A stretch of DNA of 64,000 nt from positions 1-64,000 of the forward strand of contig JADGDY010000003.1 of assembly GCA_016744655.1 (NCBI GenBank). Direction: 5' to 3'. The position numbers were made by a program, and so were the translations under genes. This document shows, piece after piece, positions 27,769 to 38,985 of this stretch. Position 1 is the stretch's first letter, and each line of letters opens with the position of its first letter. The stretch comes from Bacteroidales bacterium. Its GTDB lineage: Bacteria > Bacteroidota > Bacteroidia > Bacteroidales > UBA12170. The notes below the pieces were generated by a model that saw nothing but the letters and a program-made list of their open reading frames with translations, was not told the origin of the DNA and did no database searches.

Positions 27769-30111
27769 ATGGCAAAGAATTTAGTAATTGTGGAGTCACC
27801 TGCCAAGGCAAAAACCATAGAGAAATTCTTAGGTAAGGATTTTATGGTTAAGTCTAGTTTTGGTCATGTGATGGACCTGGCAAAGAAGGATTTCGGAGTA
27901 GATATTAAAAACGGGTTTATACCTAATTATGAAGTATCTGCTGATAAGAAGAAATTGGTGACAGAGTTGAAGAAGGATGCAAAAGCCGCTGATATGGTAT
28001 GGTTAGCTTCGGATGAGGATCGCGAAGGGGAAGCCATAGCTTGGCATCTATTTAATGCACTAAAACTCGATAAAGAAAAAACGCGCCGCATCGTTTTTCA
28101 CGAGATTACAAAAACTGCAATTTTAAATGCCATCGATAATCCAAGAGATATTGATGAACATTTAGTTAATGCACAACAAGCGAGAAGAGTATTAGATCGC
28201 TTAGTTGGTTATGAAATATCTCCGGTATTATGGAGAAAAGTAAAACCTTCTCTTTCTGCTGGTCGTGTACAGTCTGTGGCTGTAAGATTAATTGTAGAAA
28301 AAGAAAATGATATCAAGGCTTTTGTACCTGTTTCTGCTTACAGAGTAATGGCAAAGTTCTTAATTGATGGTTCAGGAACTGTTTTAGAAGCTGAATTACC
28401 AAAAAGGTTTGCCACAAGAGAAGAAGCAAAAGCATTTTTAGAAAACTGCTTAGTTTCTACTTACAAAGTAGACGCAGTGGAGAAAAGACCTGGAAAAAGA
28501 TCTCCAGCTCCTCCATTTACAACTTCTACCCTTCAGCAAGAAGCCAGTAGAAAAATGGGGTATGGTGTGAGTAAAACCATGGTAGTAGCTCAGCAATTAT
28601 ATGAAGCAGGGTATATTACTTATATGAGAACTGACTCTGTAAACCTAAGTAATTTAGCTATTGGAAAAGCCAAAGAGGTGATTACTGAAAACTACGGAGC
28701 TGATTATAGTAAAACCAGAAGTTTCACCTCAAAAATTAAAGGTGCTCAAGAGGCTCACGAAGCCATTAGACCTACCTATTTAGAGAACAAAACTATTAAA
28801 GGTGACAATAGCCAGCAGAAACTTTATGAGTTGATTTGGAAACGTACCATTGCTTCTCAAATGGCGGATGCTAAAATTGAAAAGACAACTATTAATATTG
28901 AGATTTCTAAAGCACCTGAGAAAATGAGAGCTCAAGGTGAAGTCATTACTTTTGAGGGATTCTTGAAAGTATATATGGAATCGAGAGATGAGGATAATGA
29001 TAGCGAAACTAAAGGCATGTTGCCTCCATTGAAAAATGGTCAGCCTTTGGATTTAGATTGCATGTTGGCTACTGAAAAATATACCAAACACGCACCTCGT
29101 TATTCTGAAGCCAGCTTGGTAAAGAAGTTAGAGGAACAAGGTATTGGACGTCCGTCTACTTATGCTCCAACCATTAGCACTATCCAGAAAAGAGGATATG
29201 TGGTAAAAGATGACAGAGACGGTTTCAATCGCGATTTCAACGAGCTCAGATTGAGTGGAAACGAAATTACAGAAGCGGTTAAATCTGAAGTTTACGGTGC
29301 AGTAAAGAATAAATTACTGCCTACAGATATTGGTACTTTAGTTAACAAATTCCTCTCCGAACACTTTACAGAAATACTTGATTATCAGTTCACAGCTAAA
29401 GTAGAGAAAGAATTTGACTCCATAGCCGATGGAAAAACACAATGGAATAAAATGATTGGTGATTTCTATCAACCATTTAAAAACCAAGTGGACCATACCA
29501 TTGAAAATGCTGAGCGTGAAAAAGGTGAAAGATTATTAGGCATAGATCCTAAGTCTGAAAAGAACGTTTATGCTCGTATTGGAAGATTTGGACCTATGGT
29601 TCAGATTGGTGAAGCTGAGGATGAAGAAAAACCTCGTTTTGCTAGCTTGAAAAAAGGACAAAGTATTACTGAGATCAATTTAGAGGAGGCTTTAGAACTT
29701 TTCAAATTCCCAATAAAAGTTGGAGAAATAGATGGGAAAGTCGTAAATGTTGCCATTGGTCGTTTTGGTCCTTATGTGAGCCACAATAAAGTATTTGCTT
29801 CTATTCCAAAAGGCGAAGATCCAGCTGGTGTTGATTATGACAGAGCGGTTGAGTTACTCGAGGAAAAGAAAAAGAAAGATGCTGAGAAATTCATTAAAGG
29901 CTTCGATGAAGAACCTGAATTAACAGTATTAAAAGGCCGTTGGGGTCCCTATATCAAATACAAAAAAGGTAATTACAAAATTGCCAAACCAACTGGTTTT
30001 AAAGACAAAGAAAAATTAGCTGAAGCCTATATGGAAAAAGCAAAAAATTTAACTTTAGAAGAATGCCAAAAGTTGGTGAAAGAACAAGATAAGACGAAGA
30101 AGAAGAAATAA
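27769..30111 (+). CDS. topA: DNA topoisomerase I
   Basis: The 780-residue type IA topoisomerase relaxes negative supercoils. The TOPRIM domain opens the protein (NLVIVESPAKAKTIEKFLG, then SDEDREGEAIAWHL with the metal Asp residues). The active Tyr lies in GYITYMRTDSVNLS. The C-terminus lacks Cys4 zinc fingers and instead carries three repeats with GRFGPMV, GRFGPYV and GRWGPYI, the zinc-free tail usual in Bacteroidetes. The last residues are Lys-rich. A strong terminator follows at 30131-30174. Confidence 0.98.
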   Translation: MAKNLVIVESPAKAKTIEKFLGKDFMVKSSFGHVMDLAKKDFGVDIKNGFIPNYEVSADKKKLVTELKKDAKAADMVWLASDEDREGEAIAWHLFNALKLDKEKTRRIVFHEITKTAILNAIDNPRDIDEHLVNAQQARRVLDRLVGYEISPVLWRKVKPSLSAGRVQSVAVRLIVEKENDIKAFVPVSAYRVMAKFLIDGSGTVLEAELPKRFATREEAKAFLENCLVSTYKVDAVEKRPGKRSPAPPFTTSTLQQEASRKMGYGVSKTMVVAQQLYEAGYITYMRTDSVNLSNLAIGKAKEVITENYGADYSKTRSFTSKIKGAQEAHEAIRPTYLENKTIKGDNSQQKLYELIWKRTIASQMADAKIEKTTINIEISKAPEKMRAQGEVITFEGFLKVYMESRDEDNDSETKGMLPPLKNGQPLDLDCMLATEKYTKHAPRYSEASLVKKLEEQGIGRPSTYAPTISTIQKRGYVVKDDRDGFNRDFNELRLSGNEITEAVKSEVYGAVKNKLLPTDIGTLVNKFLSEHFTEILDYQFTAKVEKEFDSIADGKTQWNKMIGDFYQPFKNQVDHTIENAEREKGERLLGIDPKSEKNVYARIGRFGPMVQIGEAEDEEKPRFASLKKGQSITEINLEEALELFKFPIKVGEIDGKVVNVAIGRFGPYVSHNKVFASIPKGEDPAGVDYDRAVELLEEKKKKDAEKFIKGFDEEPELTVLKGRWGPYIKYKKGNYKIAKPTGFKDKEKLAEAYMEKAKNLTLEECQKLVKEQDKTKKKK

Positions 30112-30130
30112 CGATTCTTTAGTCTGAATT

Positions 30131-30174
30131 AAAAAACGTCAAAAACAGCGTAAGCAGGTCTTTGACGTTTTTTT
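30131..30174 (+). terminator. Terminator of topA
   Basis: AACGTCAAA (30135-30143) pairs with TTTGACGTT (30161-30169), and the stem is flanked by an A run before and seven T after. Confidence 0.85.
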
Positions 30175-30191
30175 ATATTTGCACTAAACTC

Positions 30192-30343
30192 ATTAGAGTC
30201 TGCCTATAAACTAATGTGTTTGATTCAGAAAGTTCGAATTCGAGGCTTGTGAATTACTGAATAACAATAATTTTACATTTGTAAATGTTTGTTTTCAGTG
30301 CAAGCGTAACGAAGAAGTCGGACTTTATGGGCAAACATTAATT
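30192..30343. repeat. MITE-like 152-bp repeat, copy 1
   Basis: It begins ATTAGAGTCTGCCTATAAAC and ends with the imperfect inverse of that sequence (…CTTTATGGGCAAACATTAAT). It shares length, ends and internal blocks (GTGTTTGA, AAAGTTC, GGCxTGTGAA) with 43862-44013. No reading frame is inside. It ends 20 bases before the glycosyltransferase ATG and contains a TACATTTG box (30274-30281) that could serve that gene. Confidence 0.75.
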
Positions 30344-30363
30344 ATTACATTTTGAATAAAACT

Positions 30364-31254
30364 ATGCTCCAAAAAATCAGCAAATTTAGTCGTGAATTAG
30401 ATTTCAGTCCAGCCTTTTCACTTATTATCCCTTCGTGGAATAATATAGATTACCTAAAGCTGTGTGTAAATAGTATTCGAAAGAATAGTGATTTGAAGCA
30501 TCAGATCATTATTATTTTAAATGAAGCCAATGATGGTAGTTTGGAATGGGTAAAAGCTCAAGATGACTTGGATTATATTTATGCGGAGGAGAATATTGGG
30601 ATTTGCTACGGACTCAATATCACTCGTCAACTCATTAAGTCGGAGTATATACTTTATGCCAACGACGATATGTACCTACTTCCTCATTGGGATGCTCATT
30701 TAATGGAGGAGGTTAACAAAATAGGTCATTCTGAATTTATGCTATCCTCCACTATGATTGAGCCTTTTGACACTGGTAACAAATCGGTAATTGTAGCACC
30801 CTTTGGGGAGAGTTTAGAAGAGTTTAAAGAGCAGGAGTTATTAGATAGCTTTGAGAGCTTAGAGAAGCCTGATTGGAAAGGCAGCACTTGGCCTCCAAAT
30901 CTCATGCACCGCGACATGTGGGACTTAGTAGGTGGCATGAGCCCCGAATATCATCCAGGCATGTATTCCGATCCCGATTTGAGCAAGAAGTTCTGGGATG
31001 CAGGAGTAAGAGAATTTAAGGGCGTAGCCAAAAGCCGCGTTTATCATTTTGGTAGCAAATCCACTGGCAGAGTCAAGAAAAACAAAGGTGCACATACCTT
31101 TCTAATGAAATGGGGAATGACATCCGGCAGCTTTACCAAGTATTTCTTGCATCGTGGCGAAGATTATAATGGAAAGATTGATGCTCCGGGCTTAAGCTCC
31201 TCTAAAAAGTTTTTGAATAAGTTGAAAGGATTGAAGAGTTTGATGGGTAGTTAA
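30364..31254 (+). CDS. Family 2 glycosyltransferase
   Basis: The protein of about 296 residues has a GT-A fold: FSLIIPSWNNIDYLKLCVNSI at the start, HQIIIILNEANDGS, then NIGICYGLN and a YANDDMYLLPHW (DDM as DxD) metal site. FMLSSTMIEP and GGMSPEYHPG follow. It lacks membrane segments, so it is a soluble or peripheral transferase of the rhamnosyltransferase-like type with unknown acceptor. A TTG at 30352 is in frame, and ATG 30364 is preferred. It stands alone between a MITE-like repeat and an AT-rich region. Confidence 0.87.
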   Translation: MLQKISKFSRELDFSPAFSLIIPSWNNIDYLKLCVNSIRKNSDLKHQIIIILNEANDGSLEWVKAQDDLDYIYAEENIGICYGLNITRQLIKSEYILYANDDMYLLPHWDAHLMEEVNKIGHSEFMLSSTMIEPFDTGNKSVIVAPFGESLEEFKEQELLDSFESLEKPDWKGSTWPPNLMHRDMWDLVGGMSPEYHPGMYSDPDLSKKFWDAGVREFKGVAKSRVYHFGSKSTGRVKKNKGAHTFLMKWGMTSGSFTKYFLHRGEDYNGKIDAPGLSSSKKFLNKLKGLKSLMGS

Positions 31255-31890: not shown

Positions 31891-32331
31891 ATGTCAAATT
31901 CAATTCGAATCCCAGAGATCAAACTTGAACTTCATGAAGGTGATGTTATCTATTTAAAGAATGCAAACAATGGAAAATATATAACTGTGAAGGAAGATGA
32001 AAACATTCAAGCCTCAGTAACAGTACCTGATAAATATTGCAAACACACTGTCGTCATTCATAATGACCTAACAATCTCTCTACGTGCCGATAACAACAAG
32101 TACTGGAGCAGGATTGGTGATACAAACATCAAAGCTTCAAAAGTAATTCCCGATCAATATTCTAAATTCAAGGTTATGCAGCTTTGTAATATAGATGATA
32201 ACACCTACATGGCTCTACAAGCAGACACAGACAAGTGGCTTAGTAGAATGGGACATGCAAATATTGCGGCTTCTAAAGACGGTATTGACCAATTTTGCGA
32301 GATTCTTGTTGAAGTTTTTGCACCTAAATAA
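31891..32331 (+). CDS. Three-repeat beta-trefoil (fascin-like) protein
   Basis: The 146-residue protein has three similar units of about 42-46 residues: NGKYITVKEDENIQASVTVP, then NKYWSRIGDTNIKAS and DKWLSRMGHANIAAS. Each unit carries the L-x-A-D-x-x-K-Y-W/L-S-R core of fascin/agglutinin-type beta-trefoils. No signal peptide, lipobox or membrane helix is visible, so it is cytoplasmic or released by other means. Trefoils of this size bind glycans or proteins. The role is unknown. It is a lone gene in AT-rich DNA, consistent with horizontal gain. Confidence 0.6.
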   Translation: MSNSIRIPEIKLELHEGDVIYLKNANNGKYITVKEDENIQASVTVPDKYCKHTVVIHNDLTISLRADNNKYWSRIGDTNIKASKVIPDQYSKFKVMQLCNIDDNTYMALQADTDKWLSRMGHANIAASKDGIDQFCEILVEVFAPK

Positions 32332-33720: not shown

Positions 33721-33804
33721 CAAAGTTTCACAAAGGAGACTCAAAGTTTCTCAAAGGAGACTCAAAGTTTCTCAAAGGAGACTCAAAGTTTCTCAAAGGA
33801 GAAT
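33721..33804. repeat. 21-bp tandem repeat, four copies
   Basis: Four units of CAAAGTTTCTCAAAGGAGACT occur head to tail at 33721, 33742, 33763 and 33784, with changes only in the first (C to A context) and last unit. The surrounding 33673-33924 frame merely translates the repeat and is not taken as a gene. Confidence 0.9.
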
Positions 33805-33994: not shown

Positions 33995-34040
33995 AAATTG
34001 TAAAATAGGAAAATGGTCAATGAGTGCTAAATGCACTCAA

Positions 34041-35528
34041 TCAGTCCTTGAGACAGCGAATACTGAGTCCTAAGGGCTTTATGTGATAATATCTATTAAC
34101 TTGGTCCAGATTGTCGTGCATAAAACGGAGCCAAGCTTTAGTGTCTGAATACTCCCTAGAGGACCACCAGTAAGCACCACCGCCAAGGTCAGAGAAAGAA
34201 AAGGAACCGCCATAGGCGATGCACCCACCTGGTTTGGCATCAAAACCACTAGTGTTATTTCCATTCCCATTATTATCCCAACCACTGCTAGATTTCATCT
34301 GTTTAGCCTGATCAGTACCTCTCCATCCTGTACCATCAGCTTCATCCTGACTCATTCCAAGTGCCATTTCCATGGTTTTCCATTCCTCATCACTTGGCAA
34401 ATGCCAGCCAGTTGGACAAGCAGTAAGTGCGGCCTCCCAAGTATAAAGTCTGCCGTAGGTATCTCCATTGGCACTACTATTATCATACCACCAACTATCA
34501 TCAGTTTCATAGTTGAGGTTTTCTGCCATCCAACACTGTGCTCCTATTTCTGTAATTTCATAAGTCTGTCCCCCATAGCTTATATGAGTCTCCCCTGCAC
34601 AACCTTCATTCACATAAACAAATGTTGTAATTTGACTCGTTAACCCTTCTGTATCTTTTACTTCTAATTTAGCTATATAAGAACCTCCAGTGGTGTATTG
34701 ATGGTTTTGAACTTTATTCGTATCCCAATCAGTATCCCATATTCCATCACCTTCGAAATCCCATCTTACTTGTAAACTACTTGATGGGTCGTAGTCGTCA
34801 CTAGATGCTGATGCATCAAAAGTAAAAACTGTACTAATCAAACCTTCAGATGGAGTTAAAGTAAAAAAGGCAGTAGGTTGCGCATTAGCAATCACAGTAA
34901 TGATATTGGAATATTGTGCAGTTAACCCTTCATTATCTTTCACTTCTAATTTAGCCGTATATGAACCAGCAAGGCTGTATTGGTGGTTTTGAGTTTTATT
35001 GGTATCCCAATCTGTATCCCAACTTCCATCACCATCAAAATCCCACCTTACTTGCAAACTGCTTGATGGGTCGTAGTCATCTGTACTTGCACTTGCATCA
35101 AATGAAAAAATGGTTCTAACTTGTCCACTAGTTGGAGACACTGTAAAATTAGGCTCTGGAGGGGTATTACTTGCGGTTACCTCTATATATTCTGTTTTCG
35201 TTTTTGTATCAGAGCCAGCTTTGTTTAATACTGTTAATGTAACAGAATAGACACCTTCATTTTGATAGGTTCTTATTGGGTTTTCTATTGTACTTGTGCT
35301 ATTATCACCAAGTGTCCATAGCCATTCTGTTGGTCTATTTTCCGATTTATCAGTAAAGCTTACTGTTAAAGGTACACGGCCTTTTTTAATATCAGCAGTA
35401 AAATTAGCAACAGGAATTACATTGCTTTCTTCTATTTCTTGTGCTTCTTCTACTTCTTTATCCTTTTCGCATCCTATATAAAATACGGATACTACTGCAA
35501 TACAAATAATTAGGCTTATTCTTTTCAT
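34041..35528 (-). CDS. Lipoprotein with three PKD domains and a FISUMP domain (paralogue 1)
   Basis: The 495-residue protein has a lipoprotein signal (lipobox YIGC, Cys about 20) and a first PKD domain at about 40-118 (WLWTLGDNSTST). Two similar PKD-like domains follow at about 125-212 and 217-302, each with VRWDF(D/E)GDG and WDTDWDTNK. A FISUMP domain occupies about 308-495 (CWMAENLNYE, GWHLPSDEEWK, YWWSS, SIRCLKD). FISUMP is a C-type-lectin-like surface module. The protein is likely exposed on the cell surface for binding. It is paralogous to 37177-38652, but its last 60 residues differ strongly from that copy. Confidence 0.9.
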   Translation of the reverse strand: MKRISLIICIAVVSVFYIGCEKDKEVEEAQEIEESNVIPVANFTADIKKGRVPLTVSFTDKSENRPTEWLWTLGDNSTSTIENPIRTYQNEGVYSVTLTVLNKAGSDTKTKTEYIEVTASNTPPEPNFTVSPTSGQVRTIFSFDASASTDDYDPSSSLQVRWDFDGDGSWDTDWDTNKTQNHQYSLAGSYTAKLEVKDNEGLTAQYSNIITVIANAQPTAFFTLTPSEGLISTVFTFDASASSDDYDPSSSLQVRWDFEGDGIWDTDWDTNKVQNHQYTTGGSYIAKLEVKDTEGLTSQITTFVYVNEGCAGETHISYGGQTYEITEIGAQCWMAENLNYETDDSWWYDNSSANGDTYGRLYTWEAALTACPTGWHLPSDEEWKTMEMALGMSQDEADGTGWRGTDQAKQMKSSSGWDNNGNGNNTSGFDAKPGGCIAYGGSFSFSDLGGGAYWWSSREYSDTKAWLRFMHDNLDQVNRYYHIKPLGLSIRCLKD

Positions 35529-35694: not shown

Positions 35695-37113
35695 TTATAA
35701 ATCCATCATGTTTGTTGGTTTTGATACAATATTCAAATTTCTATCCAAAACTATCATGGTAGGTGTAGCGTAGATATTATAATCAATAGCAGCTTGGGTA
35801 TCCCAACCTTTATAATTACATAAGGTTTCTAAATGTATATTTTTCAAGTTTAGGAACGACTCTAGTTCTTTTTTCTCAGTATCTATACTAATGGTATAAA
35901 CCTGCCAAGTTTCTTGTTTTTCAGTTGTATACCAATCTTGTATTTTTGGTATTAATGTTTTGCAGTGTGGACACCAACTAGCCCAAAAAACGATAAGGAT
36001 GTTCTCTTTGGCTGTTTCTGAAACATTCACATTTTCTCCATTTACATTTGAAAGTTCGATATTAGGAGCAGTTTGTCCAATCTGCATGCTCTCGTACTTC
36101 TCTAGTCTGGCTAAGGCTTCTGATTTTCTTTCCTCATTTTCACATTGTTGCTCCGGGGTTGGATAGTTCTTGGCAATATGTATAATAACCTCCTCCAGTT
36201 GATAACGTTCGAATCCCCTGACCAAATAATCTATCACAAAAGCATACATTTCGGGGTTATCTTGTGTTTTAGGAATGATTTGGTCAACAGCATATTTAAA
36301 GGCTAATTCCAACATACCTTTGCTTTGGTTTTTATCAGCATATAAACCTAAGTATTCTGTGATTTTTGTAGTAAGAATATCTGAATTTATCAAGCTGTTT
36401 TCTAGCCAATCTACTCCATCAAACCAATGTTGTTGTAGATATGCTTTTTGTTCATTAAAAGTTAATCCCATAGGCAAGGTGGGTTTTAAATCGGCTTGAA
36501 TAAATGGCAGAATAAAGTTGTTTTGGTACTTATTCCCCTTTTGACGAACAAATGCAGGCAACAACCCTTGTTGTTTGTTGAATTCTTGATAAGCAATTTG
36601 ATAAAACTCCGAATCTTTATCATACCAATTAATAATAGGATTGAGCAAATCTAAGTTTTGATAATTTATGTTCTTGAACTCTATATACTCCAACCAAATT
36701 TGATTTTCAATACTATTGATAACTACTAGGCTTTTTTGTTCAAAAGGATCATTTATTTGCAATTGTATTTCCTGTTCATTTGCCCAAAAAACTACCTTAT
36801 TTTCTCCGTTGACAACTCTGTATTGGCCTTGTTGATAGTTAGTTTCCCATGAGAAGTCCAAATGGTTAATATCTACCTGCAAACTATCTAAAGTTATTAT
36901 TCTATCCCCCTTTATTTGTTGGAGATAATAGAATTGCTGGTTTGGGTTTTTGACATGAATCTTTATTTGAGCCTCAAGATTTACTATGGTAAATAGAGTA
37001 AACACTAAAACCAAGTTGAGGGATAATATCGATTGCAATTGATTTTCACACTGCTTTGAGATGTAATCACTAAGCCTGCGAAAGTAAATATCTATGATGT
37101 TTTCTGTCTTCAT
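35695..37113 (-). CDS. TlpA-like thiol-disulfide oxidoreductase with large N-terminal domain
   Basis: The 472-residue protein has a long N-terminal region with a signal anchor (about 30-48), a beta-rich DUF4369-like part (about 50-130) and a helical middle. A C-terminal thioredoxin fold (about 345-470) has the redox motif FWASWCPHCKTLIP and a cis-Pro in IYATPTMIV. It would act in the periplasm in disulfide exchange or reduction. It lies between the two PKD-FISUMP lipoproteins on the same strand, 63 bases after paralogue 2. The odd 30-residue extension before the signal could mean the true start is further downstream. Confidence 0.83.
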   Translation of the reverse strand: MKTENIIDIYFRRLSDYISKQCENQLQSILSLNLVLVFTLFTIVNLEAQIKIHVKNPNQQFYYLQQIKGDRIITLDSLQVDINHLDFSWETNYQQGQYRVVNGENKVVFWANEQEIQLQINDPFEQKSLVVINSIENQIWLEYIEFKNINYQNLDLLNPIINWYDKDSEFYQIAYQEFNKQQGLLPAFVRQKGNKYQNNFILPFIQADLKPTLPMGLTFNEQKAYLQQHWFDGVDWLENSLINSDILTTKITEYLGLYADKNQSKGMLELAFKYAVDQIIPKTQDNPEMYAFVIDYLVRGFERYQLEEVIIHIAKNYPTPEQQCENEERKSEALARLEKYESMQIGQTAPNIELSNVNGENVNVSETAKENILIVFWASWCPHCKTLIPKIQDWYTTEKQETWQVYTISIDTEKKELESFLNLKNIHLETLCNYKGWDTQAAIDYNIYATPTMIVLDRNLNIVSKPTNMMDL

Positions 37114-37176
37114 ATTAATTATTCAAATTAATTAGGCAAATAAGGAATTTGTCTTTGGTTACTATAAATCACTTAA

Positions 37177-38652
37177 TCAATCCTTTAGGCAACGTACACT
37201 TCGTCCGAACATCTTGCCGCCATTATTGCGGCGGCTCACTAGGCCGTAGTCGTAGCTGAGGATACGATACCAAGGATCCAAGCTTGTGTACTCACTCGAT
37301 GACCACCAGCTAGCGATGTAGCCAAGGTTGTTGAACGAACCATTGACACTACGGTATCCCCCCGGAAGGGCAGTAAAGCCACTAGTATTTGTTCCATTTC
37401 CATTATTATTCCATCCACTTGTTGCTTTCATTTGTTTTCCTTGATCTGTACCACGGTAGCCAGCCTCATCTGCCTCACTCTGGCTCATGCCCAAGGCCAT
37501 TTCAAAGGTTTTCCATTCCTCATCACTTGGTAAATGCCAACCGTTTGGACAGGCTGAAATTGCTGCCTCCCATGTATAAAGCCTCCCATAGATATCTCCA
37601 TAGTCACTAGTATTATCATACCACCAACTATCTTCAGTTTCGTAATTAAGATTTTCTGCCATCCAGCACTTGGAGTCTATTTCAATGATTTCATAAGTCT
37701 GTCCCCCATAGCTTATATGAGTCTCCCCAGCACAACCTTCGCTCACATTTACAATATCTGTAAATTGACCTGTTAACCCCTCTGTATCTTTTACTACTAA
37801 TTTGGCTGTATAGGAACCAGTGTTGCTGTATTGATGGCTTTGAATTTTATTTGTATCCCAATCAGTATCCCAAGTTCCATCACCTTCAAAATCCCACCTT
37901 ACTTGTAAACTACTTGCTGGGTCAAAATCATCAGTACAAGCTGATGCATCAAAAGTAAACACCACACTAATCAAACCTTCAGATGGAGTTAAGGTGAATG
38001 TGGCAATAGGTTGTGCATTAGCAGTCACCGTAATGTTATTGGAATATTCTGCAGTTAAACCATCAGTATCTTTCACTTCTAATTTTGCTGTATAAGAACC
38101 AGCAATACTGTATTGGTGATTTTGAGTTTTATTGGTATCCCAATCAGTATCCCATATCCCATCACCTTCGAAGTCCCACCTTACTCTTAAACTACTTGTT
38201 GGATCGTAGTCGTCACTACATATTGATGCATCAAAAGTAAAAATCGTATTAATCAATCCACTAGTTGGGGACACTGTAAAGATAGGCACTGGAGCAGTAT
38301 TACTTGCAGTTACCTTTATATATTCTGTTTTTATTTTTGTGTCAGAACCAGCTTTATTTAATACTGTTAATGTTACAGAATAAATACCTTCATTTTGATA
38401 GGTTCTTATTGGGTTTTCTATGGTACTTGTACTATTATCACCAAGTGTCCATAGCCATTCTGTTGGTCTATTTTCTGATTTATCAGTAAAGCTTACTGTT
38501 AAAGGTACACGGCCTTTTTTAATGTCAGCTGAAAAATTAGCAACAGGAATTACGTTGCTTTCTTCTATTACCTCCTCTTCATTATCCTTTTCGCATCCTA
38601 TATAAAATGCGGATATTACTGCAATACAAATAATTAGGCTTATTCTTTTCAT
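37177..38652 (-). CDS. Lipoprotein with three PKD domains and a FISUMP domain (paralogue 2)
   Basis: The 491-residue paralogue of 34041-35528 has the same lipobox, three PKD domains and a FISUMP domain (about 304-491). Before the PGG that begins the last third of FISUMP the two proteins are about 80% identical by eye. After it (last 60 residues) only about 40% match, around an invariant frame of GSF, WWSS, EY, W, R and RCLKD. The DNA for this part is GC-richer (37191-37380 is about 53% by hand count, against 43% for the next 180 bases). Probably a surface binding protein with a variable ligand face. Confidence 0.9.
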   Translation of the reverse strand: MKRISLIICIAVISAFYIGCEKDNEEEVIEESNVIPVANFSADIKKGRVPLTVSFTDKSENRPTEWLWTLGDNSTSTIENPIRTYQNEGIYSVTLTVLNKAGSDTKIKTEYIKVTASNTAPVPIFTVSPTSGLINTIFTFDASICSDDYDPTSSLRVRWDFEGDGIWDTDWDTNKTQNHQYSIAGSYTAKLEVKDTDGLTAEYSNNITVTANAQPIATFTLTPSEGLISVVFTFDASACTDDFDPASSLQVRWDFEGDGTWDTDWDTNKIQSHQYSNTGSYTAKLVVKDTEGLTGQFTDIVNVSEGCAGETHISYGGQTYEIIEIDSKCWMAENLNYETEDSWWYDNTSDYGDIYGRLYTWEAAISACPNGWHLPSDEEWKTFEMALGMSQSEADEAGYRGTDQGKQMKATSGWNNNGNGTNTSGFTALPGGYRSVNGSFNNLGYIASWWSSSEYTSLDPWYRILSYDYGLVSRRNNGGKMFGRSVRCLKD

Positions 38653-38688: not shown

Positions 38689-38862
38689 GAAAAATACTGT
38701 AAAACTGAACATGCTATCTTTGTATAACATATAAAAACAATTCAACACTTTTAATACATCAAAGAATTTATTAGTAAATAAGACAAAACCTATAAAACAC
38801 TTAACAAAAAGAACACTGCAAGGGGGAATATCGCCTGTAATTTATTTTAAGCATAACAGGCA

Positions 38863-38985
38863 TTGCTGTATTGATAGTTTTGTACTATACTGGCTTCCTA
38901 ATCCCCATCCCCTAGAGAGTCCAACCGCACTTGCTGGTTGCTTGATGGATCGTAATCATCTACACATTCTTCTGAAATAAACATA
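38863..38985 (-). pseudogene. Remnant of a PKD-domain lipoprotein
   Basis: On the minus strand the DNA reads EECVDDYDPSSNQQVRLDSL then GDGD and a stop, matching DDYDPSSSLQVRWDFEGDG of the intact PKD lipoproteins. Further on, the sequence equivalent to NHQYS is recognisable. It is a third, largely deleted copy. Confidence 0.75.

Follow-up and report, generated by a model that had tools for sequence, protein, structure and literature searches.

The Fib_succ_major (FISUMP) domain is a listed target domain of diversity-generating retroelements (DGRs) (Ye 2014, PMC4159848). Remote targets, diversification in trans and targets in genomes without a reverse transcriptase (RT) or template have already been described (PMC4891356, PMC10907252), and DGR surveys that start from the RT miss remote targets (Roux 2021, PMC8144416). 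The two lipoprotein genes studied here, LP1 and LP2, do not represent a new system but belong to a kind already known. Similar to the targets of T. denticola (Nimkulrat 2016, PMC4891356), they encode lipoproteins with a candidate variable repeat (VR) at the 3′ end, in a genome in which neither RT nor template repeat was found. Unlike in LP1 and LP2, the template of the T. denticola targets is known from sister strains and adenine bias can be scored, whereas the genus studied here yielded no template; the domain in LP1 and LP2 also differs, being FISUMP on PKD repeats. In phage BPP-1, homing needs a hairpin or cruciform just downstream of the VR, in which pairing of the stem matters and not its sequence, and phage DGR hairpins have a GRNA loop and a stem of 7–10 bp (Guo 2011, PMC3240598). 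LP1 resembles the BPP-1 mtd VR in having a short hairpin immediately 3′ of the VR, with a paired, variable stem of 7–10 bp, and differs from it in the ATTTA loop and in being a lipoprotein host gene instead of a phage tail tip gene.

FISUMP targets beside recognisable DGR cassettes occur in three relatives of the same order. L105 (G090:C100) carries a complete DGR, composed of a FISUMP target, bAvd (PF22296), a template repeat and an IGNLTSQ/YVDD-type RT, and L110 (G056:C101) and L112 (G076:C671) carry the target, a 113-aa bAvd-like gene and a template repeat, with an RT that is damaged or truncated. All three share the FISUMP tail layout of LP1 and LP2, and their template repeats read PGGNRNNNG-FNN-GNNGNWWS...; different from LP1 and LP2, their targets adjoin the cassette and lack a hairpin immediately after the stop codon such as that of LP1 and of C51, another FISUMP gene of the genome studied here. 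The RT at L110:4050-5120 looks internally deleted and that at L112:63-839 is truncated near low-complexity repeats, both adjoining the FISUMP target, and because of this damage the two cassettes may be inactive. A phage contig from IMG/VR (L192) likewise combines a FISUMP variable domain with a template repeat and an IGNLTSQ/YVDD-type RT, but there the domain belongs to a phage tail/collar-type protein and the cassette is adjacent; the complete DGR of this viral contig, with the FISUMP-tipped phage protein as its target, spans L192:4636-8617.

LP1 and LP2 are located in the window, a stretch of 64,000 nucleotides on contig C62 of a genome assembly of 5.23 Mb in 273 contigs that is 86.8% complete (Table 1). 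In both proteins a leader with a lipobox-like cysteine is followed by three PKD domains and a C-terminal FISUMP domain, with matches to PF09603 (Fib_succ_major) at E 4e-38 in LP1 and 1e-36 in LP2 and to three PKD_4 stretches in each. The open reading frames and the FISUMP lipoprotein assignment given in the initial annotation were correct. Six FISUMP genes of the genome score well (C225, C51, LP1, LP2, C1 and C162), and a seventh is weak.

Table 1. Features at the LP1–LP2 locus (positions in the window)
Feature	Position	Strand	Remarks
LP1 lipoprotein	34041..35528	-	495 aa; 3 PKD domains and FISUMP (Fib_succ_major) domain
LP2, paralogue of LP1	37177..38652	-	491 aa; architecture as LP1
TlpA/AhpC-TSA-like (thioredoxin-fold) protein between LP1 and LP2	35695..37113	-	probably not part of the DGR
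LP1 variable-repeat-like tail	34044..34235	-	about PGG to last codon; from codon composition
LP2 variable-repeat-like tail	37180..37374	-	from codon composition, AAY columns and change point
IMH-like block AAGGACTGAT at LP1 stop codon	34040..34049	-	common to C51, G004_C35, G008_C84 and G023_C140
IMH-like block, LP2 form, AAGGATTGAT	37176..37185	-	hairpin expected next is decayed
LP1 hairpin TGAGTGC-ATTTA-GCACTCA	34021..34039	-	begins one base past stop; DNA fold -7.1 kcal/mol, z -4.7

Amino-acid identity between LP1 and LP2 is 84% in the leader and PKD part and 81% in the N-terminal part of the FISUMP domain up to PGG, and it falls to 41% after PGG (58 aligned codons). These values agree with the approximately 80% and 40% of the initial annotation, and the fixed W-W-S-S, E-Y, W, R and R-C-L-K-D positions that it reported amid the tail changes are indeed present. 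Differences at the three codon positions rise from 0.11/0.11/0.38 before PGG to 0.48/0.36/0.57 after it, and about 43 bp immediately 5′ of the two start codons are 98% identical. Since 38% of third positions differ even in the N-terminal part of the FISUMP domain, LP1 and LP2 are old duplicates. After PGG, 57% of third positions differ, so the tails are not recent copies of one template and the earlier caution on this point was right. A common template for LP1, LP2 and C51 was ruled out by disagreement of the WWSS codons and the third positions. The differences between LP1 and LP2 were not seen to be confined to template adenines, as may result from different template lineages or from a long-past divergence.

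The last ~60 codons of LP1, LP2 and C51 turn C-ending and A-poor. The bodies of these genes have a GC3 of ~0.23 and a C3 of ~0.12, and A3 drops from 0.35 in the bodies to ~0.12 in the tails. In the LP1 tail, GC3, C3 and A3 are 0.50, 0.35 and 0.12 (body 0.23, 0.11 and 0.35); the LP2 tail has values of 0.60, 0.42 and 0.13, and the last 60 codons of C51 have a GC3 of 0.62 and a C3 of 0.47. No such shift was identified in the FISUMP tails of C225, C1 and C162, three other FISUMP genes of the same genome. Conditioned on amino acids and local codon usage, the excess of NNC in the last 60 codons reaches z 4.0 in LP1, 5.4 in LP2 and 5.7 in C51, compared with -1.5 (C225), -1.5 (C1) and -0.9 (C162) in these control paralogues. 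The third-position change point of LP2 is codon 425, between G and FTALPGG, i.e., at the VR edge, while in LP1 and C51 the best single change points, codons 331 and 648, respectively, lie upstream of it; a sharp edge of the codon switch is present in LP2 only. Ordinary diversifying selection on a lectin-like binding face after duplication would be in keeping with amino-acid changes that cluster around fixed fold positions, and with the tails of the dispersed, footprint-free genes C225, C1 and C162, which differ as well; however, it leaves unexplained a codon choice that goes beyond the amino acids (z 4–5.7), the switch at the VR edge of LP2 and the hairpin described below, and we consider it highly improbable.

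In LP2 and C51 the codon shift is concentrated at AAY columns of relatives' templates. The template repeats of L105, L110 and L112 have 25 AAY columns in common, at which LP2 carries NNY codons in 22 of 25 cases and C51 in 23 of 24 (together 45/49), with NNC codons numbering 16 and 17 (together 33/49). The controls C225, C1 and C162 have 46/75 NNY and 7/75 NNC at these columns, so that LP2 and C51 differ from them with p ~1e-4 for NNY and p ~1e-11 for NNC. LP1 has NNC at 8 of 25 AAY columns (p 0.01) and NNY at 19 of 25, the latter not significant against the controls, and its AAY columns include A- and G-ending codons. Taken alone, this line of evidence makes a strong case for LP2 and C51 and a moderate one for LP1. 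A short tail cassette acquired horizontally from a GC-richer donor and spread between FISUMP genes by ordinary recombination, without a retroelement, might alternatively produce tails with a GC3 far above that of the body and with synonymous codons that differ among the three tails. Against such a donor, the shift is mainly a gain of C and a loss of A at third positions, its concentration lies at the AAY columns of LP2 and C51 (the 33/49 NNC above), and a hairpin at the stop codon would not be predicted; moreover, the tails of two relatives, G058 and G096, keep their third bases and vary at positions 1–2, for which recombination alone is insufficient. We therefore regard this origin of the tails as very unlikely.

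Hairpins directly after the stop codon, at the position equivalent to that of LP1, also occur in C51, G004_C35 and G023_C140. Single-strand DNA folding z values are -4.7 (LP1), -3.7 (C51), -5.9 (G004) and -6.0 (G023), and the flanking AAGGACTGAT block is almost invariant. No folding hairpin was identified at the equivalent site of LP2 (0 kcal/mol) or G008_C84 (weak), nor after the stop codons of the footprint-negative genes C225, C1 and C162. In an alignment of six sequences, 80.9% of the cells of the 8-pair stem are paired, compared with at most 53% in slid versions, and four of the eight pairs have changed on both sides, which is compensatory evidence for the stem; alignment and structure were picked after inspection, so shuffle counts need care. 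The loops are ATTTA (5 nt) in LP1, TTTT in C51 and GACA in G023; of these three, only GACA follows the GRNA rule. Thus a hairpin 3′ of the VR exists in LP1 and C51 and not in LP2, and the two window genes are complementary: LP2 has the cleaner footprint and no hairpin, LP1 the opposite. On the simplest reading, LP2 may be frozen as a target because its hairpin is gone, and LP1 may still be competent because its hairpin is intact.

The codon footprint, the match to AAY columns, the compensatory changes of the hairpin and the FISUMP DGRs of the same order support LP1 and LP2 as DGR variable genes whose core cassette (RT, template repeat and bAvd) is not adjacent, an explanation that we consider very likely. 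In this explanation, the last ~60 FISUMP codons would be the variable repeat, which mutagenic retrohoming would once have copied from an AAY-rich template while placing random bases at its adenines. The variation would be confined to a single face of a binding domain with a lectin-like fold, which a lipid anchor and a PKD stalk would hold outside the cell, and the target would be delimited at its 3′ end by the hairpin and by the IMH-like block that precedes it at the stop codon. A DGR, which may lie in the unassembled part of the genome or on another replicon or may have been lost, would act, or would have acted, on LP1 and LP2 from a distance. The tails themselves were presumably made by retrohoming. 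Points that count against LP1 and LP2 as DGR targets are that no RT, template or bAvd was found in the assembly, that the AAY evidence for LP1 is weak and that the hairpin of LP2 is lost. The resemblance of the tails to retroelement-diversified targets, which the initial annotation had pointed out, therefore stands with respect to the AAY footprint, the depletion of A, the switch at the VR edge of LP2 and the hairpin of LP1, and does not extend to a resident DGR or to A-specific variation between LP1 and LP2.

The genome search suggested in the initial annotation was run, and neither a DGR RT nor a template repeat came up. No DGR RT was found in the 87%-complete assembly; a profile of the DGR-type RTs of relatives matched only a remnant on C107, which is also the sole RVT_1 match. 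This candidate (C107:2419-2991) was ruled out as a DGR RT because it is the remnant of a group II maturase, with RVT_1 and GIIM domains, a QGSPISP motif and one stop. In the same assembly, blastn with each VR gave no second copy that could be a template repeat, tblastn with template proteins matched only the FISUMP genes themselves, and the best match to bAvd/Avd had an E of 0.02, none being convincing. Neither a DGR-type RT nor a template repeat was identified in 10 other genomes of the genus, where an RT at G006:C150 was rejected as a DGR RT on account of its retron-like QGAVTSP motif. Scanning viral contigs with the L105 RT yielded no relative, and tblastn against plasmids returned only RTs below 60% identity. 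An automatic scan for adenine-biased repeats gave an A/T-rich match in L086 and a match with non-A mismatches in L111, neither of which was relied on. The initial annotation had taken lack of a DGR RT in the genome as grounds for refutation. In form, the negative result falls under this, but the argument carries little force here because the assembly is 87% complete and because G058 and G096, which are 97–98% complete and gave no DGR RT match either, have FISUMP pairs that differ mainly at positions 1–2.

Two FISUMP tails of G058, located on different contigs, differ in 33 codons, of which 27 keep the third base (25 of them a pyrimidine), and in G096 the third base is retained in 17 of 23 differing codons of the compared stretch. 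This pattern is what copying of an AAY-rich template with errors at adenines would produce, and such pairs in genomes without an RT match mean that a missing RT in an assembly of this kind does not refute DGR action. Among the footprint-bearing genomes of the order, no DGR-type RT match was obtained in G004, G008, G017, G023, G058, G082, G095, G096 and G105. Template repeats of G058, G096 and others were not found either, and the matches there that are most similar to a template sit in long open frames, as VRs do. FISUMP tails are numerous in G079 and G082, which also gave no DGR RT match. One reading that fits G079 and G082, as well as G058 and G096 with their position 1–2 pairs and no RT match at 97–98% completeness, is that many FISUMP surface proteins of the order are rewritten in trans by an off-chromosome DGR, on a plasmid, phage or other mobile element, and that chromosomes would consequently carry VR arrays without the cassette; we judge this reading to be rather unlikely.

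That the writing DGR was lost from the lineage, leaving LP1 and LP2 as fossil targets with tails now under ordinary mutation and selection, has a probability that we place slightly below even. It agrees with the lack of a core cassette in the assembly and in 10 members of the genus, with the decayed hairpin of LP2 and the A- and G-ending codons at AAY columns of LP1, and with T. denticola isolates that retain such target genes without RT and template repeat (PMC4891356); retention of a folding hairpin in LP1 and C51, and the ~13% of the genome missing from the assembly, speak against it. Loss of the DGR is a sub-case of the preferred explanation, that of variable genes remote from their cassette, and the two cannot be told apart with these data.

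The structural model of the FISUMP domain has a pLDDT of 93. Its best structural match in the PDB is the C-terminal domain of Legionella Lcl, 8q4e (E 3e-3, prob 0.99, TM 0.36–0.48), followed by several C-type-lectin-like chains and 4eps, which moderately supports the lectin-like fold proposed earlier for the tail domain. A sequence search of the PDB yielded no significant relative, and the three window proteins had no match in PHROGs. The FISUMP domain presumably binds variable ligands.

These genes suggest that a DGR target can be recognised without an RT, from its own codons and its 3′ hairpin. Because several FISUMP-rich genomes of the order have footprint tails and no DGR RT in their assemblies, current counts may underestimate how widely DGRs act on surface proteins of free-living Bacteroidota.

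The TlpA/AhpC-TSA-like protein encoded between LP1 and LP2 is probably outside the DGR; a homologue with 29% identity is encoded at L114:2747-4132 (G004), near a footprint-bearing FISUMP gene. Upstream of LP2, a PKD-domain remnant (DDYDPSSNQQVRLDSLGDGD*EASIVQNYQYSNACY) at 38855-38963 on the minus strand looks like a former third copy of the lipoprotein. In the congener locus L117 (G008:C140), topA is followed by a gene for a family 2 glycosyltransferase, 66% identical, and by a FISUMP gene, in the order of the window (27769-31254 and 34041-35528), but the FISUMP gene there has another architecture and lies on the other strand than LP1. Downstream of LP1, 3.9 tandem copies of a 21-base unit, CAAAGTTTCTCAAAGGAGACT, occupy 33721-33802 with 98% matching, and a small protein of 146 aa with a weak Fascin-domain match is encoded at 31891-32331.
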